Source of the DNA: an uncultured Paraprevotella sp.
GTDB taxonomy: Bacteria > Bacteroidota > Bacteroidia > Bacteroidales > Bacteroidaceae
DNA: 47,170 nt
Direction: 5' to 3'
NCBI GenBank assembly: GCA_947177395.1
Contig: CAMWUI010000022.1
Span: forward strand, 1-47,170
Positions 2,792 through 47,014 of the stretch are shown in pieces. How positions within the stretch are numbered: position 1 is the first letter of the stretch; each line of letters opens with the position of its first letter. The translations under genes and the position numbers were made by a program. The notes below the pieces were generated by a model. The model was not told the origin of the DNA. It made no database searches and was given only the letters and a program-made list of their open reading frames with translations.

Positions 2792-2847
2792 CGCACGAAC
2801 GCGGATTATTCCTTCGGTCTACGAAAAGAATAATCCGCGTTCATGCG
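2792..2847. terminator. Hairpin between convergent genes, overlapping the amidase 3' end
   Basis: A stem of 20 pairs with one mismatch (2792-2811 with 2828-2847, of which 15 pairs at 2797-2811/2828-2842 are perfect) encloses a 16-base loop. It lies between the plus-strand GH35 gene and the minus-strand amidase gene and could stop transcription from both sides. A U-tract is weak on both strands. The stem is also coding: the last 12 residues of the amidase and its stop codon fall inside it. Confidence 0.65.
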
Positions 2848-3648: not shown

Positions 3649-3668
3649 ATCCTCGTCTTTTCCGGCGG

Positions 3669-3696
3669 CAAAGATAAGAAAGTTTTTCAGGAAAAC
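3669..3696 (-). promoter_or_regulatory. Promoter of the amidase gene
   Basis: On the minus strand TATCTTTG (3669-3676 as CAAAGATA) fits TAnnTTTG, with GTTTTC (3691-3696) in the -33 position. It lies about 20 bp upstream of the amidase start and interlocks with the plus-strand promoter of the AlaX-like gene. Confidence 0.6.
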
Positions 3697-3717
3697 GGGA
3701 TAAAATGCCTATCTTTG
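3683..3717 (+). promoter_or_regulatory. Promoter of the AlaX-like gene
   Basis: TATCTTTG at 3710-3717 fits the -7 consensus, with a T5 run (3683-3687) at the -33 position, 22 bases away. Start codon at 3755. The -33 region overlaps that of the divergent amidase promoter. Confidence 0.6.
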
Positions 3718-3754
3718 CCGCGGCCGACGGCCGTTTGACGAACCTCATACACTC

Positions 3755-4228: not shown

Positions 4229-4236
4229 CCGCGGCG

Positions 4237-6834: not shown

Positions 6835-8385
6835 ATGGCAGAACAACAACGGAAGACCGCGCGACGGACAACGCGCACGAAAGTGGTGGAAGTTCCCTCG
6901 GAGGACGCTTACGGACGGGAACAACCGCAGGCCGTACCTTTCGAGGAGGCCGTGCTGGGCGCCCTGATGATAGAGAAGGACGCCTATTCGCTGGTGAGCG
7001 AAATCCTGAAGCCCGAATGCTTCTACGACCATCGCCACCAGCTGATATACGAATCCATCCGTACGCTCAACCTGCAACAGAAGCCCGTGGACATCCTCAC
7101 CGTCACGGAGCATCTGAACAGCACGGGCCATCTGGAGGAATGCGGAGGTCCTTACTACATCACGCAACTCAGCGGCAAGGTGGCCTCGTCGGCCCATATC
7201 GAATACCACGCCCGCATCATCGCACAGAAGTATCTGGCCCGCGAGCTCATCACGTTCACGAGCCGTATCCAGTCGAAGGCGTTCGACGCCACGGTGGATG
7301 TGGACGACCTGATGCAGGAGGCCGAGGGCAAGCTGTTCGAGATTTCCCAGCAGAACATGAAGAAGGACTACACGCAGATCAATCCCGTCATCCACGAGGC
7401 CTACGAGATGCTGCAGAAGGCGGCCGCCCGGTCCGACGGACTCAGCGGACTGAGCAGTGGATTCGAAAAACTGGATCGCATGACATCCGGATGGCAGAAC
7501 TCTGATCTGGTCATCATCGCCGCACGTCCGGCCATGGGAAAGACAGCTTTTGTGCTGTCCATGTGCCGCAAGATGGCCGTGGATATGAAGATTCCCTGCG
7601 CCATGTTCTCCCTTGAAATGAGCAACGTGCAGCTGGTGAACCGTATGATTGTGAACGTCTGCGAGATTCCCGGCGAGAAGATAAAGAGCGGGCAGTTGGC
7701 TCCCTACGAATGGGGGCAGCTGGACAACAAAATCACGCAGCTCTACGACGCACCGTTCTACGTGGACGACACGCCTTCGCTCTCGGTGTTCGAACTGCGC
7801 ACCAAGGCACGCCGCCTCGTGCGGGAACACGGCGTGAAAATCATCATGATAGACTACCTGCAACTGATGAACGCCAGCGGCATGTCGTTCGGAAGCCGCC
7901 AGGAAGAGGTGAGCACCATCTCCCGCTCGCTGAAAGGACTGGCCAAAGACCTGAACATCCCCATCATCGCCCTGAGCCAGCTGAACCGTGGCGTGGAGAG
8001 CCGCGAAGGTATCGAAGGCAAGCGCCCGCAACTGAGCGACCTGCGTGAATCCGGAGCCATCGAGCAGGACGCCGACATGGTATGCTTCATCCATCGTCCA
8101 GAATATTACAAGATATACCAGGACGAAAAGGGACGCGACCTGCACGGCATGGCCGAAATCATCATCGCCAAGCACCGTAACGGCGCCGTGGGAGACGTGT
8201 TGCTGAAATTCCGGGGCGAATATGCCCGCTTCCAGGATCCGGACGAGGACGCCTATATCCCCGTACCCGGAGAAGCCGCCGTCTACGGCTCGCGGATGAA
8301 CAGCGGCGACGCACCGGCTCCCATGCCGGCGGACAGCGGTTCTCCGTTTGGTCCGCCTCCTCCCGATGACATTCCTCCGTTCTGA
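6835..8385 (+). CDS. dnaB: Replicative DNA helicase DnaB
   Basis: DnaB is the hexameric 5'-3' helicase at the replication fork. The protein has 516 residues. The N-terminal helicase-interaction domain (PFEEAVLGALMIEKDAY onward) spans about residues 35-140. The RecA-like motor has Walker A ARPAMGKT (K236), Walker B IIMIDYLQLM near residue 342, and SQLNRGVESR near 380. A low-complexity acidic/proline C-terminus (GPPPPDDIPPF) follows. A basic N-terminal stretch (RKTARRTTRTK) is ordinary in Bacteroidales. It has its own promoter and terminator, so it appears monocistronic. No inteins are seen. Confidence 0.97.
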   Translation: MAEQQRKTARRTTRTKVVEVPSEDAYGREQPQAVPFEEAVLGALMIEKDAYSLVSEILKPECFYDHRHQLIYESIRTLNLQQKPVDILTVTEHLNSTGHLEECGGPYYITQLSGKVASSAHIEYHARIIAQKYLARELITFTSRIQSKAFDATVDVDDLMQEAEGKLFEISQQNMKKDYTQINPVIHEAYEMLQKAAARSDGLSGLSSGFEKLDRMTSGWQNSDLVIIAARPAMGKTAFVLSMCRKMAVDMKIPCAMFSLEMSNVQLVNRMIVNVCEIPGEKIKSGQLAPYEWGQLDNKITQLYDAPFYVDDTPSLSVFELRTKARRLVREHGVKIIMIDYLQLMNASGMSFGSRQEEVSTISRSLKGLAKDLNIPIIALSQLNRGVESREGIEGKRPQLSDLRESGAIEQDADMVCFIHRPEYYKIYQDEKGRDLHGMAEIIIAKHRNGAVGDVLLKFRGEYARFQDPDEDAYIPVPGEAAVYGSRMNSGDAPAPMPADSGSPFGPPPPDDIPPF

Positions 8386-8390
8386 TATCC

Positions 8391-8444
8391 CCGTCCGGCG
8401 AACAGTCTGAAAAAGTCTCTTCGCCGGACGGTTTTCCTTTTTCC
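8391..8444 (+). terminator. Intrinsic terminator of dnaB
   Basis: A perfect 12-bp stem (8391-8402 with 8420-8431, CCGTCCGGCGAA) with a 17-base loop is followed directly by a T-rich tract (TTTTCCTTTTTCC). It starts 6 bases after the dnaB stop codon. Confidence 0.9.
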
Positions 8445-8510
8445 CGCCAAATCATTCTTTCCGCCCGTCAATTGTCAACCACATATATTGGTGGGTTGCA
8501 AAAAAAAACG

Positions 8511-8518
8511 TAATTTTG
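8511..8518 (+). promoter_or_regulatory. Promoter -7 element of the pheT operon
   Basis: TAATTTTG fits TAnnTTTG, with TTGG/GGTTG around 8488-8498 as a loose -33 element. The pheT ATG is at 8559. The promoter would serve pheT and the three genes packed behind it. Confidence 0.6.
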
Positions 8519-8558
8519 CGCGTTGAAAATCGATTAATATACAAAACACCGACATACT

Positions 8559-11063
8559 ATGAATATTTCTTATAACTGGCTGAAAGAGTATGTAGACTTC
8601 GAGCTGACGGCACAGGAAGTGGCCGACGCGCTCACCTCCGAAGGCCTTGAGGTAGGCTCCGTGGAAGAGGTACAGGTCGTGAAAGGCGGACTGCAGGGAA
8701 TTGTCATCGGCGAGGTGCTCACCTGCGACGTGCATCCCAATTCCGACCACATGCACATCTGTTCCGTGAATTTGGGCGGAGAAGAACCTGTACAAATCGT
8801 GTGCGGCGCTCCCAACGTGGCCGCCGGACAGAAAGTGGTGGTGGCGACATTGGGCACCAAACTGTACGACGGCGACGAGTGCTTCACCATAAAGAAATCC
8901 AAACTGCGCGGCGTGGAGAGCAACGGCATGATTTGCGCCGAAGATGAAATAGGTATCGGCACGGACCACAACGGTATCATCGTGTTGCCGGAGACCGCTG
9001 TGCCCGGCACGCCAGCTGCCGAATATTATAACCTCAAGAGCGACTGGCTCATCGAGGTGGACATCACGCCCAACCGGGCGGACGCTTGTTCCCACTACGG
9101 GGTGGCACGCGACCTGTATGCCTGGCTGGTACAGAACGGCTACCGGACAGCCCTGCACCGCCCTTCGGACGAGGCATTCCGGACGGACAGCCACGATCTG
9201 GACATCGATGTGGAGATAGAGAACACGGAGGCCTGCCCGCGCTATTGCGCCGTGACGCTGAAAAACTGTCAGGTGAAGGAAAGCCCCGCATGGCTGCAGG
9301 ACAAGCTCCGCATCATCGGACTGCGCCCCATCAACAACATCGTGGACATCACCAACTATATCATGTTTGCCTACGGCCAACCGCTGCATTGCTTTGACGC
9401 TGACATGATAAAAGGAGGCAAGGTGATTGTGAAATCTATGCCGGAAGGCACGCCGTTCGTCACGCTGGACGGCGTGGAGCATACACTGAGCGAACGCGAT
9501 CTGGCTATCTGCAATGCGGAAGAACCGATGTGCATCGCCGGAGTATTCGGCGGAAAGGGTAGCGGCACCTACGAGACAACAACCAACGTGTTGCTGGAAA
9601 GCGCCTACTTCAATCCGACATGGATACGCAAGAGTGCCCGCCGTCACGGCTTGAGCACGGACGCTTCCTTTCGCTTCGAGCGCGGTATCGATCCGAATGG
9701 CCAGGTGTACGCCCTCAAACAAGCGGCTCTGCTCTGCAAGGAACTGGCCGGCGGTGAAATCGCCATGGATATCAAGGACGTATACCCTTGTCCGATAGAG
9801 GACTTCAAAGTGGACCTGAAATACAGTTACGTGAACAGCCTGATAGGAAAGACGATTCCTGTGGAGACGGTCAAGAGCATCGTGGGAAGTCTGGAGATGC
9901 AAGTACTGGAAGAAACTGAGGAAGGACTGCTGTTGCAGGTACCGGCCTATCGGGTAGACGTGCAGCGCCCCTGCGACGTTGTGGAGGACATCCTGCGCGT
10001 GTACGGATATAACAATGTGGAAATCCCCACGACTCTGAAGTCAAGCCTTACGGTGAAAGGCGACGTGGACCGGAGCCACAAGTTGCAGAACCTAATAGGG
10101 GAGCAGCTGGTAGGATGCGGATTCAACGAGATTCTGAACAACTCGCTCACACGCGGCGCATATTACGAACAGCTGGAGTCCTATCCGGCCGCCCGTTCGG
10201 TAAAGTTGCTCAATCCGCTGAGTGCCGATTTGAATGTAATGCGCCAGACGTTGCTGTTCGGCGGACTGGAAAGCATTGCCCACAACGCCAACCGTAAAAA
10301 CGCGGACCTGAAATTCTTCGAGTTCGGAAACTGCTACTACTTCCACGAGGAAAACAAATGTCCGGACATACATGAAGGTGCGGACAGCCGCGATCCGGAA
10401 GTTATCAAGCATGTATTGGACGCATACAGCGAAGACTATCACATGGGACTGTGGGTGACAGGAAAGCGTGTAAGCGGTTCGTGGATTCACCCCGACGAGG
10501 AAAGCTGTTTCTATGAACTGAAGGCGTACGTACTCAATATCCTGGCCCGTCTGGGCGTGAATCCGGGTACCACGGTCTTTGCAGAGGGGACGAACGACAT
10601 TTACGGCAAGAGCCTCGAAATACACAACCGCGGCGGCAAGGTGCTGGTGACGATGGGTATCGTGAGCCGCAAGTTGACCAAAGCGTTCGACATAGACAAC
10701 GATGTCTACTATGCCGACCTGAACTGGAAACTTCTGATGAAAGCCATCCGAAACAACAAGGTAAGCTACCGCGAGATAAGCAAGTATCCGGCCGTGAGCC
10801 GCGACTTGGCCCTGCTGCTGGATAAGAACGTCACGTTCGAGGAAGTGGAGCGCATAGCCTACGCGACGGAAAAGAAATTGCTGAAAGACGTCCGCCTGTT
10901 TGATGTGTACGAAGGAAAGAATCTGGAAGAAGGCAAAAAGAGCTATGCCGTCAACTTCGTATTGCAAGACGAAAACAAGACGCTGAACGACAAACAAATC
11001 GAAGCAATCATGTCCAAACTGATATCCAACATGGAGAGCAAGTTGGGCGCCAGACTGCGATAG
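8559..11063 (+). CDS. pheT: Phenylalanine--tRNA ligase beta subunit
   Basis: PheT forms the alpha2-beta2 enzyme that charges tRNA-Phe, and its B3/4 module edits Tyr-tRNA-Phe. The length of 834 residues is normal. Domains in order: N-terminal NWLKEYVDF; an EMAP-type tRNA-binding fold at about 40-150 (GEVLTCDVHPNSDHMHIC); B3/4 editing at about 210-385; B5 at about 410-480; the catalytic-like core; and the C-terminal FDX-ACB anticodon-binding domain at about 740-833 (YREISKYPAVSRDLALLLD). pheS is not adjacent, as is usual in Bacteroidales. The next gene starts 3 bases downstream. Confidence 0.97.
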   Translation: MNISYNWLKEYVDFELTAQEVADALTSEGLEVGSVEEVQVVKGGLQGIVIGEVLTCDVHPNSDHMHICSVNLGGEEPVQIVCGAPNVAAGQKVVVATLGTKLYDGDECFTIKKSKLRGVESNGMICAEDEIGIGTDHNGIIVLPETAVPGTPAAEYYNLKSDWLIEVDITPNRADACSHYGVARDLYAWLVQNGYRTALHRPSDEAFRTDSHDLDIDVEIENTEACPRYCAVTLKNCQVKESPAWLQDKLRIIGLRPINNIVDITNYIMFAYGQPLHCFDADMIKGGKVIVKSMPEGTPFVTLDGVEHTLSERDLAICNAEEPMCIAGVFGGKGSGTYETTTNVLLESAYFNPTWIRKSARRHGLSTDASFRFERGIDPNGQVYALKQAALLCKELAGGEIAMDIKDVYPCPIEDFKVDLKYSYVNSLIGKTIPVETVKSIVGSLEMQVLEETEEGLLLQVPAYRVDVQRPCDVVEDILRVYGYNNVEIPTTLKSSLTVKGDVDRSHKLQNLIGEQLVGCGFNEILNNSLTRGAYYEQLESYPAARSVKLLNPLSADLNVMRQTLLFGGLESIAHNANRKNADLKFFEFGNCYYFHEENKCPDIHEGADSRDPEVIKHVLDAYSEDYHMGLWVTGKRVSGSWIHPDEESCFYELKAYVLNILARLGVNPGTTVFAEGTNDIYGKSLEIHNRGGKVLVTMGIVSRKLTKAFDIDNDVYYADLNWKLLMKAIRNNKVSYREISKYPAVSRDLALLLDKNVTFEEVERIAYATEKKLLKDVRLFDVYEGKNLEEGKKSYAVNFVLQDENKTLNDKQIEAIMSKLISNMESKLGARLR

Positions 11064-11065
11064 GC

Positions 11066-11248
11066 ATGAAAGTACTGACTGCAGCTAAAGCCATATATTA
11101 TGTGCTGGTGTTCTGCTGGCTGTTGCAAGTGGCCATGCAGGGATATACGCGGGATATCATCATCCCCACGGCCGTGCTCATCGTATACGGCCTTTGGTTG
11201 CGCCATTATATGAAAAGAGGAAACAGAAACAATAAAAATACATATTAA
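11066..11248 (+). CDS. Small two-helix membrane protein
   Basis: This 60-residue protein starts 2 bases after the pheT stop. It has two hydrophobic helices (about residues 8-24, IYYVLVFCWLLQVAMQG, and 31-45, IIIPTAVLIVYGLWL) and a basic, Asn-rich C-terminal tail, suggesting an inner-membrane protein with a cytoplasmic tail. I do not recognise a named family. The tight linkage between pheT and yebC suggests a conserved operon gene rather than a chance reading frame. Confidence 0.7.
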   Translation: MKVLTAAKAIYYVLVFCWLLQVAMQGYTRDIIIPTAVLIVYGLWLRHYMKRGNRNNKNTY

Positions 11249-11260
11249 AAATTTATTCCA

Positions 11261-11986
11261 ATGGGAAGAGCATTTGAATATAGAAAGGCTGCGAAACTGA
11301 AAAGATGGGGCCACATGGCCAAGACATTCACACGGCTGGGCAAACAGATAGCCATCGCCGTAAAAGCCGGTGGTCCGGAACCGGAGAACAACCCGACCCT
11401 GCGTTCCGTCATCGCAACGTGCAAGCGTGAGAACATGCCGAAGGACAATATCGAGCGGGCTATCAAGAACGCTATGGGAAAAGACCAGAGCGACTACAAG
11501 GGCATGACGTATGAAGGATACGGCCCTCACGGCATCGCCGTTTTTGTAGACACTCTGACGGACAATCCCACCCGTACGGTAGCCGACGTGCGTTCGGTGT
11601 TCAACAAATACTCCGGCACATTGGGCAATATGGGTTCTCTGGCATTCCTGTTCGACCACAAGTGCGTGTTCACATTCAAGAAACCGGCTTCCGTAGACAT
11701 GGAGGAACTCATTCTGGATTTAATCGATTACGGAGTGGACGACGAATACGACGAGGATGAAGAGGAAGGTACAATGACCATCTACGGCGATCCGAAAAGC
11801 TACGGTGCCATTCAGAAACATCTGGAGGAAAAAGGTTTCGAGGATGTCGGAGGTGAATTCACCTATATCCCCAACGATCTGAAGGAGGTTTCCGAAGAAG
11901 CACGCGAGACCATCAACAAGATGGTGGAAAAGCTGGAAGAGTTTGATGACGTGCAGACGGTATATACCAACATGAAACCGGAATAA
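11261..11986 (+). CDS. yebC: YebC/PmpR family protein
   Basis: 241 residues beginning MGRAFEYRKAAKLKRWGHMAK, a Bacteroidota form of the MAGHSKW start of the YebC/TACO1 family. The three-domain core is recognisable (GGPEPENNPTLRSVI, NMPKDNIERAI, YEGYGPHGIAVFVDTLTDN). Members of this family have been described both as DNA-binding regulators and as ribosome-associated factors that help translate proline-rich stretches. The sequence alone does not decide between these. It is cytoplasmic, and its last base overlaps the first base of the next gene. Confidence 0.93.
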   Translation: MGRAFEYRKAAKLKRWGHMAKTFTRLGKQIAIAVKAGGPEPENNPTLRSVIATCKRENMPKDNIERAIKNAMGKDQSDYKGMTYEGYGPHGIAVFVDTLTDNPTRTVADVRSVFNKYSGTLGNMGSLAFLFDHKCVFTFKKPASVDMEELILDLIDYGVDDEYDEDEEEGTMTIYGDPKSYGAIQKHLEEKGFEDVGGEFTYIPNDLKEVSEEARETINKMVEKLEEFDDVQTVYTNMKPE

Positions 11987-12249
11987 TGGCAAGCTATCAC
12001 TATACCCCCCGGGGTACATGCAGCACATCTATCGATGTGACCGTAGAAGACGGCGTAGTGAAAAATGTCAGTTTCACGGGCGGTTGTAACGGTAACCTGC
12101 AGGGAATATCCGCTCTGGTGAGTGGTATGCCGGTGGAGGAAGTCATCCGAAGACTCAAAGGCATACGGTGCGGTTACAAAGGGACGTCCTGTCCCGACCA
12201 GTTGTGTTGCGCACTGGAGGAAATGAAAAAGAAAGTATCGCCTGCCTGA
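11986..12249 (+). CDS. TSCPD domain protein (TIGR03905-like)
   Basis: 87 residues, translationally coupled to yebC through a TAATG overlap. It matches the small TSCPD family: N-terminal YTPRGTCSTSIDVTVEDG, central FTGGCNGNLQGISALV and C-terminal GTSCPDQLCCAL, with conserved cysteines at both ends. The TSCPD fold also occurs at the C-terminus of adenosylcobalamin-dependent ribonucleotide reductases. The function of free-standing copies is unknown, and metal or Fe-S binding is a reasonable guess from the cysteines. Confidence 0.85.
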   Translation: MASYHYTPRGTCSTSIDVTVEDGVVKNVSFTGGCNGNLQGISALVSGMPVEEVIRRLKGIRCGYKGTSCPDQLCCALEEMKKKVSPA

Positions 12250-12301
12250 AACTCCCCACGTACTGAAAACATCAGTAAAAATTAGAACTATCTCCTAACA
12301 A

Positions 12302-12350
12302 AACTGCACTCCGGAAGTCTTTTTGCCTGACTTTCGGAGTGCAGTTCTGT
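12302..12350 (+). terminator. Terminator of the pheT-yebC operon
   Basis: An 18-base arm (12302-12319) pairs with 12329-12346 (AACTGCACTCCGGAAGTC against GACTTTCGGAGTGCAGTT, one imperfect pair). It lies 50 bases after the last stop codon. The U-tract afterwards is poor (CTGTT). Confidence 0.8.
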
Positions 12351-12441
12351 TATGCCGCACACGCAGGCCCTCATAAACCGTTTTTTACAGGTCAATGGAA
12401 AATCAATGGGGAAATATTGGCCCGATAGAAAATGCTCCCAT

Positions 12442-12888
12442 ACACACATGTTTGCGGAAAAAGGCTTCAATGGTTCAGACTCGCTGAGTATCAATGAGTA
12501 ATGGTTCATAAATGGTTCAGCAATGGTTCAGACTCGCTGAGTATCAATGAGTAATGGTTCACAAAAGGTTTAACAATGATTCAGACTCATTGGTAATCAG
12601 TGAGTAATGGTTTAGGAATTACCGGTTGTGGTGTGTCGCGGTGATCGGTCGCTGAACCATAGGGTGGAAAAACTGAAAGATGAATGAAGGAAAGCTGAAG
12701 GATAGCTGAACCATTTATCACTGATAATCAAATAGTTTGAACCATTGAAGCTTTTTTCCGCAAACATGTGTGTAGGAGGAGGAAAAGCTGAAGGATAAGT
12801 GAAATAAAGCTGAAGGATAGCTGAATCATTTGTTTCTGATAATCAAATAGTTTGAACCATTGAAGCCTTTTCCCGCAAACATGTGTGT
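12442..12888. repeat. 36-bp element present three times, one copy inverted
   Basis: The element containing CACACATGTTTGCGG and GGCTTCAATGGTTCA occurs at 12442-12477 in one orientation. It occurs at 12738-12773 and 12853-12888 in the opposite orientation, with only a few substitutions. The outer copies therefore form a large inverted pair of about 450 bp around the repeat block. No open frame or transposase is linked to it. Confidence 0.85.
12468..12626. repeat. 53-bp tandem repeat, three copies
   Basis: Units start at 12468, 12521 and 12574 with a strict 53-bp period. Each contains CAATGGTTCAGACTCGCTGA and ATGAGTAATGGTT or a close variant. The third copy is the most diverged. The first unit overlaps the end of the 36-bp element. 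Confidence 0.85.
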
Positions 12889-12891
12889 AGG
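12691..12891. repeat. 86-bp direct repeat, two copies
   Basis: The copies at 12691-12776 and 12806-12891 lie 115 bp apart. Each starts AAAGCTGAAGGATAGCTGAA, contains CTGATAATCAAATAG and ends with the 36-bp element. A shorter fragment of the unit start (AAAAGCTGAAGGATAAGTGA) sits between them near 12784. Confidence 0.85.
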
Positions 12892-12963
12892 GGAAGGGGG
12901 GCGGCGACGGCCTCCGCGGCTTTCCCTCCCGCAAACGGTTCCTATGCCGAGCCACAAACTGTT

Positions 12964-13104
12964 CACTTGTCAAGTGAAGTGCAGTTCACTATGGATAGTG
13001 GAGCACTATTCACTATGGATAGTGGAGCACTATTCACTATAGGTAGTGGAGTGCTGTTCACTTAGGGCAGTGAAACGCTGTCCGCTCGGTGAGTGGAATA
13101 CTAT
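12964..13104. repeat. Array of 23-24-bp palindromic repeats
   Basis: At least five units with a 23-24-bp period run from 12964. The two best (12987-13010 and 13011-13034) are identical, and later copies decay gradually. Each unit contains an inverted repeat of the form CACTATgGATAGTG followed by GAGCACTATT. A related fragment lies at 17981-18038 in opposite orientation. I see no spacers or cas genes, so this is not a CRISPR array. Confidence 0.85.
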
Positions 13105-13196
13105 CGTTACCTCCTTACGATTGCATTCCTTACCTCCTTATAATCGTATTCCTTAGCACCTTACGATTGTATTCGTTAGACCCTAAGGATAGTATT
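13105..13196. repeat. 23-bp tandem repeat, four copies
   Basis: Four units with an exact 23-bp period start at 13105, 13128, 13151 and 13174, with consensus CCTTACCTCCTTACGATTGTATT or similar. Units two and three match the first well and the fourth is diverged. The array directly follows the palindromic one and ends about 40 bp before the 3' end of the minus-strand lipoprotein gene. Confidence 0.85.
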
Positions 13197-13238
13197 CCTA
13201 AGGATGTCATTTAAGTTTGAATGAACACGCCACCGTTT

Positions 13239-39787: not shown

Positions 39788-40738
39788 ATGAGCAGTAAAA
39801 AAACTTTATGTGAACTGTTTGAGTCAAATAAGGCAGAACTGCAACAGACCCTTACAGGCATAGTTTTGCCAAAGGATCTTGGCAAGGCACAAAAAGCTGT
39901 TTCTTTATATCTGGAGAAGGTTTTTGACTCAGAAGGAGAGTTCCGTCAAAATCTCACACAATCAGAAGATTTCATTCTCGAAGCAGCCATTTCGCTACTA
40001 AATGCGCAGCAGAAGATAAGTTCAGTACTGACAAAAGAGGCTGGTAATACATCTGCCCCAAAGAAACTGCGTCCTTCTACTACAGCGCAAGAGACTACGC
40101 AGTCATCACGAGGCTTTAAGGCAGATTCGTCATATACTTTGGTTGGTGCTGCTAGTGGTGCAATTGCAGGTAAACTCCTTCTTGGAGGATGGGGAACCGT
40201 ATTTGGTGCAATTGCTGGTGTGGCATTGTCGGCATATATGTCTAATAAGATGCAAGCGCAACCTAAACCACAGCCTCAGGTCGCCCCAAGGACTGTAGTA
40301 GAGGAGAACCCTAACAAGCCTATCGATGTAGATTGTTTTATTGGTATCGTACATGATGTATGTGAGAGCGTTGACAACCTTATCGGCACATTCCGCGCTC
40401 AAGTAAATCGTGTAGTTCAGAAATACGAGTCACAAGAAAAGCCTACTTTGGACAAGGAGTATCGTCCTCTTCTCGAAAGCATACAGAGCCTTGTCGGTTA
40501 TGAGCGCAACCATGATGTAAGTGAGGAAAAATACATCAAGAAGGTTCAGGAGAGAATAGAAGATTTGGCAGAGTCACTTGATAATTACGATATTACATTA
40601 GAGAACTATTCTGATGAAACAGCATCATGGTTCGACAAGGTCTCTTCGCCAAATGCAACTGAACTAAAAGTGGTGTTCCCTGCCGTTATTAAGAATGGCA
40701 TTCTTATAATTCCAGGAAAGATTTTCATTCCTGCTTAA
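39788..40738 (+). CDS. Glycine-zipper protein with GrpE-like C-terminus (operon gene 1)
   Basis: 316 residues. An N-terminal helical part (1-100, LCELFESNKAELQQTL) is followed by a Thr/Ser-rich linker. A hydrophobic glycine zipper spans about 118-148 (GAASGAIAGKLLLGGWG, then VFGAIAGVALSAYM). A Pro/Gln linker (QAQPKPQPQV) and a helical C-terminal half follow. The last ~30 residues (DKVSSPNATELKVVFPAVIKNG, then ILIIPGKIFIPA) resemble the beta-head ending of GrpE nucleotide-exchange factors. Together with the Hsp70-like gene next door this suggests a dedicated, membrane-linked exchange factor. The GrpE relation is my inference from a weak pattern. It is the first gene of the operon. Confidence 0.6.
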   Translation: MSSKKTLCELFESNKAELQQTLTGIVLPKDLGKAQKAVSLYLEKVFDSEGEFRQNLTQSEDFILEAAISLLNAQQKISSVLTKEAGNTSAPKKLRPSTTAQETTQSSRGFKADSSYTLVGAASGAIAGKLLLGGWGTVFGAIAGVALSAYMSNKMQAQPKPQPQVAPRTVVEENPNKPIDVDCFIGIVHDVCESVDNLIGTFRAQVNRVVQKYESQEKPTLDKEYRPLLESIQSLVGYERNHDVSEEKYIKKVQERIEDLAESLDNYDITLENYSDETASWFDKVSSPNATELKVVFPAVIKNGILIIPGKIFIPA

Positions 40739-40748
40739 AACAATAACG

Positions 40749-40817
40749 ATGGAGATGAATATCCAGTTATGGAACATTATTGATGCGCTTCAAACTAACA
40801 AAATAGTCAAGTTTTAA
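40749..40817 (+). CDS. Candidate 22-residue microprotein between operon genes 1 and 2
   Basis: A 22-codon frame (starts MEMNIQLWNIIDALQ, ends NKIVKF) fits exactly between the neighbours: it begins 10 bases after the first gene and its stop is 2 bases before the ATG of the Hsp70-like gene. Its composition would suit an amphipathic helix. It may be a translated linker that couples the two genes or a chance frame. No homology is known to me. Confidence 0.35.
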   Translation: MEMNIQLWNIIDALQTNKIVKF

Positions 40818-40819
40818 TT

Positions 40820-42754
40820 ATGAAAGAAGAACAGAAAAAGCAAATTGAATATATTATCGGCATAGATTTAGGTCACGGCGAAACCTCTGCTGCCATCTGT
40901 CCGATGCAATGGGACACCGCTGTTGGACAGTTGGATCCAGCCAAAGACCTTGACATGGGAGGTAACAAGAAGGTTATGCCTTCTGCTATTACCATCCTCG
41001 ACAACGGCAACGCTTATATCGGCGATGCAGCATTCAACCCTGATGTGCTAAAGCAAGCTACAGTAAGGGTATGTTTCAAACAAGCACCTAAGGATGTCAA
41101 TGGTGATGCTGAGAAAATAATGATCCGTTTCATGCACGAGGTTTACAAAAGAATACGCGAGAACAACAAAGCTATTCTTACCGATACAAACCACCTCGTT
41201 TACATCGCAACTCCATCAGGTTGGGACAAACCAACTCAGGACCTGTACGTAAAAATGGCGCGCATTGCAGAATTACCTATCGCAGGTGTTACAAAAGAGT
41301 CTCGCGCCGCATTCGTTCGCGCGCAACATGACGCTACATCTGGACTTGGACGCAATATTGACAAAGGTTCTATTGTGTTCGATATGGGTTCCAGTACGTT
41401 GGACTTTACTTACATGAACAAGCTCCTGCCTGGACTAGTCGATCATGGATATGATTGTGGCGCATCTTTCATCGAGAAAAGTATCTATGCACAACAGCAG
41501 AAAGAAAGCGACGCTATCAAGCTGTTTGAAACCAAATATCCTAGACTGATTGACTATCTTGTATTCGAAACAAGAAATGTTAAGGAGCAGGTATATTTTG
41601 ACCCTTCTCTGAAAGTTAAGAAAACTATTAACTTCGATGACATCATTGATGACGAAGATCTTGAAGATGAACGTTTCAAACTGACGTTTAAGCCAGGTGA
41701 GCTTAATGAGTTCCTTGGTAAGAATGGTTACATAAAGAGTATTGAAGATGCGATGATTGACTACAAACAGAACCATATAGCCAATCAAGACATCTATGGC
41801 GTATTCCTCACAGGTGGTGCTTCACAAATGGACTTCATTGTTCCATTAGTTTGCAAGTGTTGGGGAGTAGAACCTTCACAAGTTTATAGAGACCAAGACC
41901 CTTCACTTACCATTTCTCAGGGCGTTGCAGAGGTTGCACGCATGGACTTGCGCACTGATGGTATGGATGTGGGCTTGGAAGAGGAAATCAACGCTTTCTT
42001 GAAAGGTAGTCAGACCTTTGATGTTTTTGTTGAGAACTTTGGACACGATCTCTGGGATAAAGTGACTGATGACATAGGCGGTGTTGTTACTGCATGGAGA
42101 GACGCAAAGGAGAACTACAGCATAAATATACTTCAAACCGTAATTTCTGATACCGTTCAAGAAAGTGTAGCTGAGTTTTCTTCTAATGCACCAGCCTACG
42201 TAGAGAGTGCCATAAAAGAAAGTACACAGGAGATTCGAGATAAGGTTGAAAGTATCATTGCTGTATATAGTTCACAAGGTGTAGAAATCAACCTACCTAA
42301 TAATGTGAAACTTGGAGAGGTAAACCTTTCTGACATCAACATGGACTCAGTGTTGTATGGTATTTCAGAGAAATTGAAAGAAGATAGTGACAATTGGGGT
42401 GCAGCAATTGGCGGCGCAGCAATTGGTGGTGCTGTTGCTATGCTCCTTGGTGGTCCGCTTACATGGCTTATTGGCGGTGGTGCTCTACTGGCAAAATGGT
42501 TGTTCAGCGAAGAAAAGACAGAAGAGCAGAAGCAAGCCGAAGCTATGGCTCGTGAGTTGGATGCAGGCCAAAGAGCACAGGTGTTCAATTCTATAAACAA
42601 GGAATGGAAATCTATCTGTTCGTCTGTCGAAACATCTATTAGAGAAGCACTTACTAGTGACAAGAGCATTAAAAACTCGATCAACAAGGTTTCAAAGGAG
42701 TTTATGCAAGCTTATAAGGATAGTTTGAAATCTGCTCGTATATTGGTTGACTAA
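40820..42754 (+). CDS. Hsp70/actin-fold ATPase with C-terminal glycine zipper (operon gene 2)
   Basis: 644 residues. The nucleotide-binding fold of Hsp70 proteins is visible: phosphate-1 IIGIDLGHGETSAAI (D16), phosphate-2 VFDMGSSTLDF (D188, T193, D195) and adenosine motif VFLTGGASQMDF near residue 330. The canonical DnaK substrate-binding beta-domain is not recognisable. From about 390 on the protein is largely helical. A strong hydrophobic glycine zipper at about 524-562 (GAAIGGAAIGGAVAMLLGGP and LTWLIGGGALLAKWLF) is followed by a helical tail. It should therefore hydrolyse ATP and insert into, or pack against, a membrane. It is not DnaK (no linker, wrong domain order). Preceded by a GrpE-like and followed by a HerA-like gene. 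Confidence 0.78.
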   Translation: MKEEQKKQIEYIIGIDLGHGETSAAICPMQWDTAVGQLDPAKDLDMGGNKKVMPSAITILDNGNAYIGDAAFNPDVLKQATVRVCFKQAPKDVNGDAEKIMIRFMHEVYKRIRENNKAILTDTNHLVYIATPSGWDKPTQDLYVKMARIAELPIAGVTKESRAAFVRAQHDATSGLGRNIDKGSIVFDMGSSTLDFTYMNKLLPGLVDHGYDCGASFIEKSIYAQQQKESDAIKLFETKYPRLIDYLVFETRNVKEQVYFDPSLKVKKTINFDDIIDDEDLEDERFKLTFKPGELNEFLGKNGYIKSIEDAMIDYKQNHIANQDIYGVFLTGGASQMDFIVPLVCKCWGVEPSQVYRDQDPSLTISQGVAEVARMDLRTDGMDVGLEEEINAFLKGSQTFDVFVENFGHDLWDKVTDDIGGVVTAWRDAKENYSINILQTVISDTVQESVAEFSSNAPAYVESAIKESTQEIRDKVESIIAVYSSQGVEINLPNNVKLGEVNLSDINMDSVLYGISEKLKEDSDNWGAAIGGAAIGGAVAMLLGGPLTWLIGGGALLAKWLFSEEKTEEQKQAEAMARELDAGQRAQVFNSINKEWKSICSSVETSIREALTSDKSIKNSINKVSKEFMQAYKDSLKSARILVD

Positions 42755-42759
42755 TAGTT

Positions 42760-45549
42760 ATGAATACACAGTTACAATCATTGGAGCCTCAGGCACGGGT
42801 GTTGGCAGCAACAGCCGTGTCTCAATCTCTTTCTTTCTGCATGGAGAGGAAGTATCTTACGAATATATCTGTAAGTGATAACGAGGCATTTGAACTTGAA
42901 TCTATTCCACCAACCCTTGAAAGCTCGGCTTCATGGATTGAGATACAACAGATAGGAAAGCCTTTGGATAAATCTGCGGAAGCATGTTTTACTGCAATGC
43001 AAAAGATATTGTACTCGTGCTTCTTACCCAAGGAAATACAGTTGCTATTCCTCATTACTGGCGATGGAAAACAAAGTCATCTGTACCTTGGACTTCGATC
43101 TCCGGGCAAAGCAGTTCCTCCGAAGAAACTTGTACGCAACCTTGAACGTTTCATCGGTGGTATCTGGCCTGGACTTCAAACAGATCCATTGAAGAGTGAT
43201 GACAGTAGAATATCAGACTTCTGCAAGCGCGTAGCATCAGAAAATCTCGAAAATGTATATGCGTTCACAGGCATACCTTCAATGGATAGCCAGTACAAGA
43301 CAGTTTATCCTGCAACTATTGACAAGCTAATTGCAGGTATGTCTGCCAGTAAGAATTATGCCTACCTTGTTGTAGCAGACCCTATCGAGAACAATGATGC
43401 TGAGTCAATGCTTTATCAGTTACGCGAAATGAACGGACAGGCAGAGTCTCTAAAGTCGATGAATGTCACAGAAGGGCTTACAGAGGGTAGTTCGCAGCCT
43501 CATACGTCATCACATTCTGTAACGCATACCAAAAGTTTCAGTGAAGCCGTATTAAAGAAGGATTTCTCAAAGTTAGGTAAGGCTGCTCTTGCTGGTACAG
43601 GTTTGGGTATCGCTGCGTCTGTATTCCCTGCTGCTGGATCCGTTCTTGAAGGATGTGCTGATGCTGCAGGGGTCATCAGTAGTGCAGCGTTGAATATTGT
43701 TGCTGGTGCATCGGTGGGCAATCTCATTTCTGGTTTGATGCCACAAAAGACTACTACTCAGGGAACATCAGATGCCGAGAGTAATAGCGAGTCCGATACA
43801 ACAACAACCAACGAGAGCCGTTCACAGAGCATAAGCCGTAACCTTGTGAATAAGCATGTAGAAGCCGTAAGCGAACACCTTTTCTATCATTCGAAGCGTA
43901 TAGAGTCAGGTAAGGCTATAGGTTTATGGAAAGTAGGTGTGTATTTGATGGCAGAGAAGAAAAGCGACTTGATGGGTGGTAGCTTGCAGTTGCGTTCGAT
44001 CCTAAGTGGACAAGAAAGTATTTATGAGCCTGTGCGTATTCATGACATTACGGACATTATGGATGAAACCGTCGAGGGCAAAAAGACACTGCGCGAATTG
44101 ACGCTTGGACATGTGTCATCACCTGTCCTGATGGTAAATAGCGCAAATGGTAAACTCTTCAACCATCCTTTGGGTGATCACTACAAGGAATTAAAAACAG
44201 TTCTTACCACGAAAGAGTTGTCATATCTCATTAACTTCCCTCTTCGTTCCGTTCCTGGCATTAGTGTGGTTGACAGCGCACCAGAGTTCTCATTAAACCA
44301 GACAATAATAGGAGATGATAATGTTATTGAGTTCGGTAGTATGCTGTATGGTGGCTCCGCAACAGATATGCCGTATCACCTTCCGATTAGCATTCTGTCA
44401 AAGCACACCCTTCTCTCAGGTATAAATGGAACAGGCAAGACCAATACGGTTCAGGCTGTGTTAAATTCCATAAGTCAGATAAACAACAACATTCCGTTCT
44501 TGGTAATAGAGCCAGCAAAAACGGAATACGTTGATTGGGCTATTGAATATAACAAGACCCACAAGGATGCACCTATCAATATATTCATCCCAGGTTGTAA
44601 GAACTACCGTGATCGTAAAACACGAGAAAGCGTAACGCTATCAGATCTACACCTCAATCCGTTTGAACCAGTGTGGCTGTCCGCTGAGCAGGATCCAAAT
44701 GTGCTTACTCACATAGACCGACTGAAATCAACATTTGCATCAGCATTCCCTATGTACGACATACTGCCTGTGCTGATGGAAGATCTGATTTATTCTCTGT
44801 ATCAAAGCCAATCTACCAACTGGATAGGCAAGGGGGCAGAACCTGTATATGGAAAGACGATTGCACCGACATTAACCTCTATGGCTTCTCATGTTGACGC
44901 TGTTATGGATGCGCATGGCTATGAGAAGCGTGTCAGCGACAACATGAAGGCTTGTCTTAACACTCGTATCTCATCACTCCGTCGAGGCTGGAAGAAGGAC
45001 ATGTTGGACGTGTTGCATTCTACTCCGTGGGAAGAGTTATTCAACAAACCATGTGTCATCAACCTGTCTTACGTGGGCGATGACGTAGATAAGTCATTCT
45101 TCATGGCATTGGTGCTCCAGTTCCTCTACGAATACAGAACGGCACAAGCAGAGATTGGCAATATCGACTTCAATTCAAACGACTGCCGACACCTCACTGT
45201 AATAGAGGAGGCTCATCGTGTTATGCAGAAGTGTGATAAACCAGAGTTACCTCAGTACAAAACCGCTATGATGTTCAGTAACATGCTGTCGGAAATTCGC
45301 GCGTATGGAGAAGGTATGTTCTTGGTAGATCAAGTACCAACACGTCTTATTCCAGATGCTATCAAGAATACCAACACCAAAATTACACATCGTTTGGTAG
45401 CCGAGGATGACTGCACTGCCATCGCTGAGTCTATGGGTATTTCCAAGGAACAAAAACCGATAATACCTAAGCTTCTCGTTGGACAATGCCTTGTATCGAC
45501 TGCACTTTCAACAGACAAACATTGGATAAAGGTTAATAAAGTAAAGTGA
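42760..45549 (+). CDS. HerA/VirB4-type ATPase with internal glycine zipper (operon gene 3)
   Basis: 929 residues. The N-terminal 1-260 has no recognised domain. A long hydrophobic glycine zipper lies at about 271-328 (AALAGTGLGIAASVFPAAG and AALNIVAGASVGNLISGLMP), followed by a Ser/Thr-rich linker to about 360. The motor part starts near 500: Walker A LLSGINGTGKTNT (K560), Walker B LTVIEEAHRVM (E816-E817) and, near the end, a VDQVPTRLIPDAIKNTNTKI segment followed by THRLVAED as in HerA/VirB4/TraC-like DNA- or protein-translocating ATPases. It starts 5 bases after the Hsp70-like gene. Function is not recognised. It could be a hexameric translocase or unfolding motor coupled to the membrane. 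Confidence 0.8.
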   Translation: MNTQLQSLEPQARVLAATAVSQSLSFCMERKYLTNISVSDNEAFELESIPPTLESSASWIEIQQIGKPLDKSAEACFTAMQKILYSCFLPKEIQLLFLITGDGKQSHLYLGLRSPGKAVPPKKLVRNLERFIGGIWPGLQTDPLKSDDSRISDFCKRVASENLENVYAFTGIPSMDSQYKTVYPATIDKLIAGMSASKNYAYLVVADPIENNDAESMLYQLREMNGQAESLKSMNVTEGLTEGSSQPHTSSHSVTHTKSFSEAVLKKDFSKLGKAALAGTGLGIAASVFPAAGSVLEGCADAAGVISSAALNIVAGASVGNLISGLMPQKTTTQGTSDAESNSESDTTTTNESRSQSISRNLVNKHVEAVSEHLFYHSKRIESGKAIGLWKVGVYLMAEKKSDLMGGSLQLRSILSGQESIYEPVRIHDITDIMDETVEGKKTLRELTLGHVSSPVLMVNSANGKLFNHPLGDHYKELKTVLTTKELSYLINFPLRSVPGISVVDSAPEFSLNQTIIGDDNVIEFGSMLYGGSATDMPYHLPISILSKHTLLSGINGTGKTNTVQAVLNSISQINNNIPFLVIEPAKTEYVDWAIEYNKTHKDAPINIFIPGCKNYRDRKTRESVTLSDLHLNPFEPVWLSAEQDPNVLTHIDRLKSTFASAFPMYDILPVLMEDLIYSLYQSQSTNWIGKGAEPVYGKTIAPTLTSMASHVDAVMDAHGYEKRVSDNMKACLNTRISSLRRGWKKDMLDVLHSTPWEELFNKPCVINLSYVGDDVDKSFFMALVLQFLYEYRTAQAEIGNIDFNSNDCRHLTVIEEAHRVMQKCDKPELPQYKTAMMFSNMLSEIRAYGEGMFLVDQVPTRLIPDAIKNTNTKITHRLVAEDDCTAIAESMGISKEQKPIIPKLLVGQCLVSTALSTDKHWIKVNKVK

Positions 45550-45569
45550 CATGCAGAAAAATAAATTAA

Positions 45570-45818
45570 ATACAGACAATTGAGTATCTGGACCTCCATT
45601 TTATTATTGGAAAGTGCTATTTCCATGGCTTAGGAACAGATGTTAATTATCAGGAAGCTGTAAAGTATTTTAATATGGCTTGTAAATATGGTTGTTCTGA
45701 GGCTTACCATTATTTGGGAACATGCTACCTCAATGGATATGGCGTAGTAAAGGACGAGAAATTTGCAAATGAGTGTTTCGTAAATGCCAAGATAAGAAAG
45801 GGGCGTAACAATGAATGA
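45570..45818 (+). pseudogene. Sel1-repeat fragment without a start codon
   Basis: The frame open from 45570 reads EYLDLHFIIGKCYFHGLGTD, then VNYQEAVKYFNMACKYG, and a second repeat YHYLGTCYLNGYGVVKDEKF. This is two Sel1-like (TPR-type) repeats ending at a TGA that overlaps the next ATG. No ATG, GTG or TTG is available in frame at the beginning. A 10-codon frame (MQKNKLNTDN) starting at 45551 ends just where the Sel1 frame becomes readable, so a one-base frameshift or decay is likely. It could instead be translated by re-initiation or frameshifting. Confidence 0.6.
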
Positions 45819-46419
45819 TTTTGAGTGGTTAGAATTACTTGAAGATGACCGTATTGAAATATCAGAAAATGATATTTTAACAGAATGCCATGTAAACGAG
45901 TCATGTGAGTTCTGTGATGAACAAGTATTGGAGGAATGTACCGCTTCTGCCGTTCAGGAGTTTATCGAGGCTAATGAACACAGACACCCTCCCTATGAGG
46001 AAGCAAGTATTGAACAGCGTGCCGAGTATATGAAAGAGTTCCACGACAATTTCAATGAAATGAGTGGCTACACAAACAATCTCCATTTCCGCGAGGGCAT
46101 GGAGCCAGAAAATCTTGGAGCATTCAACCCAGTAACGAAACAAATTGACCTCAATGCTGACCTCCTGAAGGAAGATAATCCGCAGCAGGTAATGGAAACT
46201 ATCATGCACGAAAGCAGACATGCCTACCAAGACTTTGCAATCAACCATCCTGAGCAGGTTTCTGTAGATGCGGAGACTATAAAGGAATGGGAAGATAATT
46301 TTACTCACTATATCAGACCTGAGTTTGATTTTGAAGCTTACGTAAACCAACCTGTCGAAGCAGATGCCAACGACTTCTCTGAAAGAATGTACTATGATGG
46401 CTTCTGCAACGCAGCTTAA
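45811..46419 (+). CDS. Small zincin-like (HExxH) protein
   Basis: 202 residues with an acidic N-terminus and Cys pair (CHVNESCEFCDEQ). A zinc-peptidase motif METIMHESRHAYQDF gives H133-E134-x-x-H137, with a candidate third ligand in NQPVEADANDF (E183). This pattern is seen in gluzincin-like domains of phage and conflict-system proteins. No signal peptide is visible. The gene overlaps the Sel1 fragment by 8 bases and lies in the same operon. A metalloprotease or effector role is inference. Confidence 0.7.
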   Translation: MNDFEWLELLEDDRIEISENDILTECHVNESCEFCDEQVLEECTASAVQEFIEANEHRHPPYEEASIEQRAEYMKEFHDNFNEMSGYTNNLHFREGMEPENLGAFNPVTKQIDLNADLLKEDNPQQVMETIMHESRHAYQDFAINHPEQVSVDAETIKEWEDNFTHYIRPEFDFEAYVNQPVEADANDFSERMYYDGFCNAA

Positions 46420-46431
46420 TACAGCATAACT

Positions 46432-46716
46432 ATGAATAGAGACAATATAATAATGACACTCTGCGCGCAAGGCTATCCTGATTATATGCTCGAACAGACA
46501 GCAGACAAAGTCGAGCGTATGGATGAGCGTATTAAGTCTGCGTTTGAAAAATGGGTTGACGGTAACGTTATTCCTACCATCGAGATTGAGGGGTGGGACT
46601 ATGTTAAACTGGTAGAGAAATTCAAAATGCGTCCTGTTGCAGCGTTCCTTGCCCTCGACTGGTTGACAAGAGAGCCTGAGAAAGCAGTAAAGGCACTAAA
46701 ACGAGGAATAAGATAA
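46432..46716 (+). CDS. Small helical protein of unknown function
   Basis: 94 residues, mostly helical by composition. The N-terminus MNRDNIIMTLCAQGYPDYML is UBA-like in flavour (GYP then a helix), and a WDYVKLVEKFKMRPVAAFLALDWL segment suggests two packed helices. I recognise no family. It starts 12 bases after the zincin-like gene and 3 bases before the next one, so co-translation is likely. It may bind the larger operon products. Confidence 0.65.
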   Translation: MNRDNIIMTLCAQGYPDYMLEQTADKVERMDERIKSAFEKWVDGNVIPTIEIEGWDYVKLVEKFKMRPVAAFLALDWLTREPEKAVKALKRGIR

Positions 46717-46719
46717 GGT

Positions 46720-46953
46720 ATGGCACAGTTTATTCTCACAGCAAGACATTCCAGCAACATAGGTGGTCAGCATATAGATCGTGGTCAGCAGTTTAGTTTG
46801 AACGTATGTATGATGGGTATAACTCCCACCAATCTATTCAACAACTCGCGCTGCGCTGATACGGTATTAAGACAGTTTTCTGCCCAGGGACTTGATTTAC
46901 CCAAGAACTCTCCTCTTCTGAACGGTGGACATTGGGATATTAAGATGAAATAG
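46720..46953 (+). CDS. Small protein of unknown function, last gene of the operon
   Basis: 77 residues with mixed strand and helix content (AQFILTARHSSNIGGQHIDRGQQFSLNV, then CADTVLRQFSAQGLDLPKN and GGHWDIKMK). It has no signal peptide or membrane segment. I do not recognise the family. It starts 3 bases after the previous stop and is followed by a strong hairpin at 46974-47014. Confidence 0.6.
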   Translation: MAQFILTARHSSNIGGQHIDRGQQFSLNVCMMGITPTNLFNNSRCADTVLRQFSAQGLDLPKNSPLLNGGHWDIKMK

Positions 46954-46973: not shown

Positions 46974-47014
46974 AAGAAGAGGTATCATTGTTTGGGGTTG
47001 TGATACCTCTTCTT
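46974..47014 (+). terminator. Terminator-like hairpin at the end of the accessory operon
   Basis: AAGAAGAGGTATCA (46974-46987) is perfectly complementary to TGATACCTCTTCTT (47001-47014), a 14-bp stem with a 13-base loop. It lies 20 bases after the last stop. The T-rich run only appears 15 or more bases later (TTTTATGTTTTTTC). The AAGAAGAGG arm and its T-rich partner also make it usable on the opposite strand. Confidence 0.75.

Follow-up and report, generated by a model that had tools for sequence, protein, structure and literature searches.

What would bring an Hsp70-type ATPase, a HerA-type motor and a small zincin peptidase together in one operon? This set of genes occurs in a 47,170-nucleotide stretch of DNA from an uncultured gut bacterium, a Paraprevotella sp. 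(hereafter the window), which is the whole of contig 22 of a 2.65-Mb draft genome (G000). The operon, at positions 39788–46953 of the + strand, consists of six open reading frames (ORFs) of 316, 644, 929, 202, 94 and 77 codons (p1–p6), located as in an earlier reading made from the DNA letters alone (hereafter the sequence-only reading). Comparison across loci shows a conserved core with hydrophobic segments and an exchangeable cargo; in relatives, the cargo position holds nuclease-toxin domains with linked immunity-type genes, which indicates a role in biological conflict, as the sequence-only reading had allowed. We tentatively interpret the operon as a mobile, modular effector-deployment system that exports its cargo against competitors, an interpretation to which we give a little less than an even chance. 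The genes are as follows (L-numbers below denote loci compared, and G-numbers genomes compared).

39788–40738, + strand: p1, core, a 316-residue glycine-zipper membrane-hairpin protein (Pfam PF05433, 1.1e-5)
40820–42754, + strand: p2, core, a 644-residue protein with an Hsp70-type ATPase domain and a glycine-zipper C-terminal part
42760–45549, + strand: p3, core, a 929-residue HerA/DUF87-type motor ATPase with a Ser-rich hydrophobic insert
45811–46419, + strand: p4, a 202-residue zincin (HESRHAYQ ... QPVEADA), the proposed exchangeable cargo or effector
46432–46716, + strand: p5, a 94-residue protein co-evolving with p4, a proposed immunity or partner protein
46720–46953, + strand: p6, a 77-residue small protein

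A conserved core around a HerA-type motor

The largest protein, p3, is a HerA/DUF87 ATPase. DUF87 is the only Pfam family that it matches above cut-off (5.4e-6), and its profile matches solved HerA at 6e-8, its matches in the Protein Data Bank (PDB) being mainly to HerA. The Walker A residue K560 and the pair E816/E817 are invariant in all 21 aligned proteins, HerA models of PADLOC match at up to 3e-12, and a Ser-rich hydrophobic insert spans residues ~236–360, with a transmembrane (TM)-like segment at residue 305. The HerA-type motor that had been predicted is thus borne out, and it has a hydrophobic segment. NCBI models match p3 and its relatives far below cut-off only, the best being CedD (2.6e-17 for p3, far under its cut-off in NCBIfam) and 'serine-rich protein', and the Pfam family TrwB_AAD_bind scores 0.035, again under cut-off. 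Because these scores lie below cut-off and the PDB matches are mainly to HerA, an identity of p3 as a conjugation ATPase was rejected, and with DUF87 alone above cut-off the VirB4/TraC protein that the sequence-only reading had considered is not what p3 resembles.

As a single sequence, p2 matches no Pfam family and no PDB chain. Its alignment profile matches the nucleotide-binding domain of BiP/Hsp70 at 1.4e-6 (positions 133–355), and the motifs DxG (D16), GSST/D195 and TGGAS are conserved, D16 being nearly invariant, in agreement with the claimed actin/Hsp70 fold. The likeness to Hsp70/DnaK extends to the nucleotide-binding domain and not to a substrate-binding domain, none being found in the best 60 of 99 PDB matches, where the best stretches end at or before profile position 372. 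The C-terminal part of p2 carries a glycine zipper and a TM-like segment at residue 533. It also matches the PADLOC model LeoBC at 1.5e-9, which hhalign against the dynamins of relatives did not confirm (probability 0.2%), and no dynamin GTPase domain was found in p2 with Pfam, hhalign or a PDB profile search. A dynamin origin of the p2 C terminus was therefore rejected; helices and the glycine zipper might account for the similarity. In the PADLOC check that the sequence-only reading had proposed, HerA, LeoBC and PDC models match p1–p3, the LeoBC match with this reservation. A p2 homologue also occurs on a Calothrix plasmid, with no HerA annotated within the stretch shown, and L032 has a separate gene of 116 residues (5817–6167) that by eye resembles the p2 N-terminal extension of L005 and L018–L020.

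The first protein, p1, had been taken for a GrpE-like exchange factor belonging to this Hsp70. No GrpE match was found in Pfam, PADLOC, NCBIfam or PHROGs, and the identity was rejected; p1 is instead the glycine-zipper protein identified by PF05433, with TM-like segments at residues 130 and 296. It shares the glycine zipper with p2 (hhalign 91%, 32 columns) and has no relative of solved structure better than E 0.1. Its profile also matches a 218-residue gene before HerA in L036 (2e-5), for which hhalign gives only 24% over 41 columns of glycine-rich hairpin. Each of the three core proteins contains one or more TM-like stretches; none was seen in p4–p6.

A scan with a single p3 query, one genome per species, found 20 loci, which are by construction close relatives holding p3 because they were found with one p3 sequence. 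By tblastn, p2 is present in all 20, p1 and the zincin in 18 and 17, and p5 and p6 in 15 and 10, so that the triplet proposed for comparison across genomes is indeed co-conserved. The loci most similar to the window are from Prevotellaceae and other Bacteroidales. In the flanks, no other protein cluster recurs in more than 3 of 21 loci, so the module moves independently of its surroundings, as expected of the mobile, transferred operon that the sequence-only reading had suggested. The AT-rich composition on which it had relied is also confirmed (GC content 42.6% in the operon vs 52.2% in window positions 1–39500). The module is sparsely spread: p3 was found in 7 of 101 relatives (E 1e-20, two being distant paralogues) and in 5 of 393 genomes of the order (1e-60, three distant); among 395 genomes of the phylum, p2 was found (1e-10) in the window's own and in no other.

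Identical or near-identical loci (L018/L031, L015/L033, L055/L064, L056/L065 and L058/L059) were counted once. Genes were called with a simple ORF script, which sometimes chose an antisense ORF, as over the zincin of L080. L004 was excluded from the alignments of p1, p2, p4, p5 and p6 for its split p2, L006 and L021 from that of p1, which they do not match, and L009, L010 and L015 from that of whole p4. The split p2 of L004 (6608–8619) and the p3 of L034, each divided into two ORFs, are either decayed copies or assembly errors.

The proposed cargo behaves as an exchangeable cassette

The zincin nature of p4 was confirmed by comparison: all 17 aligned zincins keep H, E, R, H and Q of HExRHxxQ and E and D of QxxExDA without exception, in a domain alignment that excludes L010 and L012 (both near the window), L009, L032, L034 and L035. 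The protein is very acidic (net charge −39) and matches DUF6782 at 8.6e-6, slightly under the Pfam cut-off. Zincin tblastn searches of plasmid records (L018 query) and phage records (L058 query) gave no match.

In two relatives, gene 4 encodes a nuclease in place of the zincin. The L011 protein has an LHH nuclease domain at its end (PF14411, 4e-27), and that of L021 contains a Colicin-DNase/WHH domain (Pfam, 9.5e-13). A profile of the first 95 residues of nine long-N-terminus zincin-type p4 proteins, of 22 collected, matches the LHH protein of L011 at 1.5e-18 and the WHH protein of L021 at 5.8e-8, the best unrelated gene scoring 0.94. One N-terminal region is thus joined to zincin, LHH and Colicin-DNase/WHH domains in these relatives, the arrangement that marks polymorphic toxins. 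The C terminus of the L021 protein holds a zincin-type stretch that stops before the catalytic motif and looks like an older cassette displaced downstream.

Core and cargo also evolve differently. Over locus pairs (L058 having been removed ahead of the test), Spearman correlations are 0.81–0.91 among p1, p2 and p3 and 0.83 between zincin and p5 (permutation p 0.001 for both blocks), whereas zincin or p5 against p1–p3 gives 0.01–0.19. In the 12 loci with all five genes the values are 0.64–0.81 for the core, 0.78 for zincin and p5 and 0.03–0.26 for core against cargo, and change little without L014. Single loci show the same split: L014 is 32%, 29% and 65% identical to the window in p1, p2 and p3 and 66% and 69% in p5 and p6, and L005 is 57% and 70% identical in p2 and p3 and 30% in p5. 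Because zincin and p5 vary together and hardly with the core, p4–p5 behaves as a cassette, and the locus as a constant machine with an exchangeable effector cassette. By tblastn, p5 occurs in 15 of the 17 loci with a zincin match and in none of the 3 without. The p6 protein correlates weakly with p3 (0.44) and p5 (0.29) and not with the zincin (0.09). Against the PDB, the best match of p6 has E 0.34, and p5 has nothing better than E 0.1. Since p5 and p6 each occur in 4 of 101 relatives, and 3 of those 4 also carry the operon, no polyimmunity pattern was seen, and this outcome on orphan immunity neither supports nor excludes export.

Some copies carry additional genes. After p3, L034 has a protein that by eye is MORN-repeat-like, a radical SAM-like gene, a Cys-rich peptide and a zincin; the SAM-like gene resembles the radical SAM enzyme of L017, identified there with Pfam. 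The MORN gene is missing from L017, and the contig of L015 stops after it. A radical SAM enzyme, a Cys/Gly-rich peptide of 72–94 residues and a zincin are clustered in L017 (13312–15385), L034 (reverse strand) and L081; the enzymes of L034 and L081 were identified by eye, and the L081 peptide is weakly matched by the p4 profile (0.0076). This pair of enzyme and Cys-rich peptide is a possible further cargo, a modified peptide.

Toxin domains behind distant HerA relatives

A tblastn search of plasmids with p3 found 43 records, and HerA relatives of the p3 family were seen in Bacteroidota, Cyanobacteriota, Bacillota, Spirochaetota, Pseudomonadota and Actinomycetota. The wider group comprises ~25 distinct loci (L027, L036–L038, L040–L054, L057, L058 and L060–L063), and alignment with the HerA of L036, L044, L046, L047 and L050 covers most of the p3 profile. 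In 9 of the ~25, a Pfam-type toxin domain lies directly after HerA:

L036: Colicin-DNase/WHH, 6.6e-34
L045: Colicin-DNase/WHH, 5e-25
L047: WHH, 1e-15
L049: Colicin-DNase/WHH, 2e-34
L058: WHH, 4.6e-8
L050: LHH, 1e-25
L038: AHH, 6e-14
L051: ADP-ribosyltransferase, 2e-24
L037: Colicin-DNase, just under cut-off

The gene after the toxin encodes SUKH in L036 and L045 (Pfam) and in L049 and L050 (annotation), and DUF6985 in L047 and L058. WHH, LHH and AHH are domains found for the most part in polymorphic toxins only (PMC3482391; statements on this paper and on PMC4159319 and PMC7159879 refer to the portions of them available to us). L058 also has, behind the WHH protein and its DUF6985 neighbour, a zincin and a p5-like gene (5e-21 and 0.0013 with our own profiles), which on these matches resemble a second toxin/immunity pair.

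Upstream of distant HerA genes, at the position of the Hsp70-type gene, dynamins are frequent: annotated pairs occur in Lactococcus (L047), Treponema (L049) and Escherichia coli (L050), Dynamin_N (Pfam) is found upstream in L037 and L058, and a PADLOC LeoBC match in L036 (1.1e-7). The dynamin-type E. coli copy is present in 1 of 5,426 genomes. The sequence-only reading is extended here in two respects: the zincin gene is the exchangeable part, and dynamin GTPases, recognized by annotation and family matches, take the Hsp70 position beside HerA relatives in other bacteria.

In some loci of the wider group, Hsp70-type genes also accompany HerA. Two cyanobacterial plasmids (L040 and L041) carry full-length p3 relatives (37%) with an Hsp70-type gene upstream, recognized by annotation in L040 and by the p2 profile in L041 (8.6e-9). 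The third gene after HerA in both encodes a HExxH protein of another kind, Cys-rich in its tail, which in L040 matches Pfam zincin families below threshold (best Peptidase_Mx1, 1.4e-5). A DUF692 gene lies within 0.5–1.5 kb of this protein (L040 15842–19212; L041 15811–18269). Since Cys-containing peptides are modified by DUF692 enzymes, this tail may be a target of such modification. In L061–L063, the genes after HerA encode a small acidic protein, one of 507–525 residues, an Hsp70 and a TPR protein; in L062, the one of these scanned, Pfam HSP70 matches at 7.5e-125 and the TPR protein has a weak DnaJ match (0.0045). The link between HerA and Hsp70 therefore recurs. Several small proteins follow HerA in L060; one of them matches HNH below threshold (0.013).

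A zincin and p5-like pair is also found in L080 (~8360–13223, reverse strand, contig 104 of G052), beside an AAA ATPase and a 692-residue Hsp70-like protein that the p2 profile matches at 2e-49. G052 has no HerA match, and this set is a sister system. In L082, a p6-like gene lies beside a WYL regulator (6943–8222) in a genome without a HerA match (G029), and ~4 kb further on is a tubulin-like gene (12307–12807; PF00091, 3e-16). Accessory housekeeping-like genes, which like the separate 116-residue gene of L032 could be decoys or sensors, include an acyl-carrier gene in L008 (14109–15008; PF00550, 5e-10), EF-Tu domain 2 in L016 (14007–14579; 5e-14) and, by eye, EF-Tu-like genes in L055 (5149–5712) and L056 (3286–5019).

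Layout and surroundings of the operon

The sequence-only reading had described gaps of 2–12 bases apart from a Sel1 fragment. This size holds for p2–p3 (5 bases), p4–p5 (12) and p5–p6 (3), but not for p1–p2 (81) or p3–p4 (261). Two further features were noted:

~45591–45809, + strand: an open remnant without a start codon in the p3–p4 gap, seen in translation (the putative 'Sel1' of the sequence-only reading)
46974–47014, + strand: a possible operon terminator, a perfect 14-base-pair inverted repeat followed by a T-rich tract

By tblastn, the remnant matches downstream genes of L018 (6.6e-6) and L032. The inverted repeat is absent from the output of a simple terminator scan. No Bacteroides-type promoter pattern precedes p1, the window having two matches elsewhere; its sigma-70-like sites number 18 against 18.9 expected. 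No convincing repeats of the kind that end mobile elements flank the operon. Past p6, the sequence is visible up to the contig end at 47170. At the other end, positions 1–5000 have a GC content of 58–68%, above the rest of the window, and long overlapping ORFs on both strands.

Export or action inside the cell

We infer a scheme of assembly, leader recognition, pumping, export and attack on a target as follows. The core would be a membrane-associated assembly of the HerA-type motor p3, the Hsp70-type ATPase p2 and the glycine-zipper protein p1, whose hydrophobic segments, at least one in each, might become inserted into the inner membrane or curve it. The cargo (p4, p5 and perhaps p6) would be a small effector with an acidic N terminus, here a zincin peptidase, and a neighbouring immunity or partner protein, swapped as a cassette against nuclease toxins and others. 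The Hsp70-type p2, or a dynamin in other bacteria, may assemble or gate the machine at the membrane, while p3 would bind the N-terminal region of the cargo and pump or extrude it through or off the membrane. As an immunity protein, p5 would guard the producer, and the cargo would attack competitors. The proposed leader shows as a net acidity in the first 14 residues averaging +3.0 in 28 cargo proteins vs −0.47 in 202 other genes of the same loci, and as a hydrophobic-acidic motif in 22 of the 28 vs 17 of the 202. The dynamin-like LeoABC promotes vesicle release, and the paddle of LeoA is glycine-rich (PMC4159319); together with the toxin domains largely confined to polymorphic toxins, this makes export plausible. 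The weakest point of the scheme is its direction, with the cargo deployed outwards and not within the cell.

Several observations count against this scheme. No signal peptide-like N terminus was seen in p1–p6, and no outer-membrane, repeat or contact domains are among the family-library hits of p1–p6, which leaves passage through two membranes unexplained. The N-terminal domain common to zincins and nucleases is absent at E 1 from the p4 of the window and from L002, L003, L004, L010, L012 and L014; the p4 of the window and of its near relatives have shorter N termini and are tied to the other cargo only by the zincin domain and by position. In the leader test, the motif was picked with the sequences already in view, its rows are related to one another, and the cargo covered does not extend to that of dynamin-type loci. 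Some correlations between core and cargo are weak rather than absent: p3/p5 reaches p 0.025, the sole core–cargo pair to do so in the full set, and in the 12-locus set p1/zincin reaches p 0.038 and p3/p5 p 0.023. No obvious immunity gene lies beside the LHH gene of L011 or the WHH gene of L021. In the wider survey, which covered 15 of the 43 plasmid records and neither of the 2 phage records, the gene after HerA in the other 16 loci is unrecognized, unscanned or past the contig end (downstream genes of L041, L042, L052–L054, L057 and L061–L063 had no Pfam scan). Toxicity of p4 is a prediction, and as the zincin and p5-like pair of G052 adjoins an Hsp70-like protein in a genome without HerA, the zincin could partner Hsp70.

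The genes found near some copies add to these points. A PADLOC candidate-defence match, PDC-M09A (2.4e-73), with an unrecognized 473-residue neighbour, lies behind the operon in L005 (14350–16896). WYL regulators, which are linked with defence, stand directly behind p6 in L019, ~6–8 kb away in L011 and L016, and, as annotated, upstream of HerA in the plasmid loci L044, L047 and L049.

These signs suit an intracellular anti-phage or anti-plasmid system, which we consider somewhat less likely than export. Here the Hsp70 or dynamin, together with HerA, would keep the effector inactive at the membrane until they detect an invader through membrane damage or the entry of DNA; the nuclease or zincin would then be set free inside the cell, with p5 or SUKH as antitoxin. 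The lack of a signal peptide-like start in p4, the WYL regulators and PDC-M09A would fit it, as would the PADLOC matches of p1–p3 and, in L048, a Csm6 gene ~3.5 kb downstream of HerA. Conflict systems that contain Hsp70, vary in their effectors and give no hint of secretion are described in PMC7159879. The radical SAM enzyme and Cys-rich peptide on some copies speak against it. The absence of an outer-membrane part and of immunity genes in L011 and L021, together with WYL and PDC-M09A, is what holds our confidence in export below even and leaves intracellular immunity a serious contender.

A membrane proteostasis machine, in which p2, p3 and p4 would extract and degrade membrane or foreign proteins and p4 would be a core peptidase rather than cargo, seems to us improbable. 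It would account for the zincin in 17 of 20 loci, for its place beside an Hsp70-like gene in G052, for the Hsp70-like genes and TPR proteins with HerA in L061–L063 and for the missing nuclease-type N-terminal domain of the window's p4; it sits poorly with the nucleases that replace the zincin behind the same N-terminal domain in L011 and L021, and with the near absence of correlation between zincin and core. That p3 is an ordinary ATPase for conjugation or DNA transfer, of VirB4, TraC or CedD type and with accessory genes, a reading towards which the sub-threshold CedD and TrwB_AAD_bind scores and the 6 of 43 plasmid records typed conjugative would point, is very unlikely, given that no relaxase, coupling-protein or mating-pair family scores above cut-off in p1–p6 (Pfam, NCBIfam and PHROGs; the remainder of the window was not searched), that flanks are unshared between loci and that relatives carry toxin domains at the cargo position.

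Comparison with known systems

The exporting system that we tentatively favour shares features with several described ones. As in polymorphic toxin systems (2012, PMC3482391), relatives have exchangeable LHH and Colicin-DNase/WHH domains behind one N-terminal domain and AHH or ADP-ribosyltransferase after HerA, several with SUKH adjacent. The HExxHxxQ-E signature of p4 resembles that stated there for PVC-metallopeptidase, a family that p4 does not match in Pfam. Unlike polymorphic toxins, the proteins here are small and no repeat stalk was seen, and a machine of HerA, Hsp70 or dynamin and glycine-zipper proteins matches no trafficking mode in the portion of PMC3482391 available to us. That paper also links FtsK–HerA superfamily motors (YueA-like) of type VII secretion to polymorphic toxins; in contrast to type VII secretion, no WXG100 or LXG family is among the hits of p1–p6 (Pfam, NCBIfam and PHROGs), and p3 joins one HerA domain to a large N-terminal part peculiar to it.

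LeoABC and Eleos dynamins likewise feature a membrane-remodelling NTPase with a glycine-rich hydrophobic part, a further point of contact being the LeoBC match of the p2 C terminus, which hhalign did not confirm; p2, unlike them, carries an Hsp70-type ATPase domain and not a GTPase, with the hhalign probability given above. LeoABC has been linked to vesicle-borne toxin release (PMC4159319). The chaperone- and GTPase-centred conflict systems of Kaur et al. (2020, PMC7159879) resemble the operon in having an Hsp70 member, NTPases, hypervariable effectors and a constant core, but, as far as the available portion describes them, they differ in that no MoxR–vWA, GTPase or tubulin was found in p1–p6 (Pfam) and that a HerA motor is central here. 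In the open literature of PMC, a full-text search whose scope left out preprints and most subscription papers found no recognized description of the gene set. HerA-based defence pairs HerA with NurA, SIR2 or DUF4297. It shares with p3 the HerA motor and intact Walker motifs; it differs in that no NurA, SIR2 or DUF4297 match was found in p1–p6 (Pfam and PADLOC) and that p3 has a Ser-rich hydrophobic insert and an Hsp70-type partner.

The toxin and immunity domains are already known, and by the tests made the machine is none of type VII secretion, a VirB4-type system, HerA–NurA/SIR2/DUF4297 or LeoABC. A bolder proposal, which we consider less likely than not, is that it represents an undescribed class of protein-export machine, in which a HerA motor, an exchangeable Hsp70- or dynamin-type membrane NTPase and glycine-zipper hairpins would deliver small effectors (nucleases, ADP-ribosyltransferases, zincins and modified peptides) picked by their N-terminal part, possibly via membrane vesicles.

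Implications

Such a machine would unite families that are hard to explain separately: Ser-rich DUF87/HerA proteins, paired bacterial dynamins, divergent Hsp70-like proteins and glycine-zipper proteins. It would offer a handle on the roles of bacterial dynamins and non-canonical Hsp70s beside HerA motors, and on this view an Hsp70-type protein driven by ATP and a dynamin driven by GTP are predicted to serve one function. Should the operon act within the cell, it would be an immune system of a new, toxin-releasing kind; if it exports its cargo, it would provide a new antibacterial delivery route in gut Bacteroidales.

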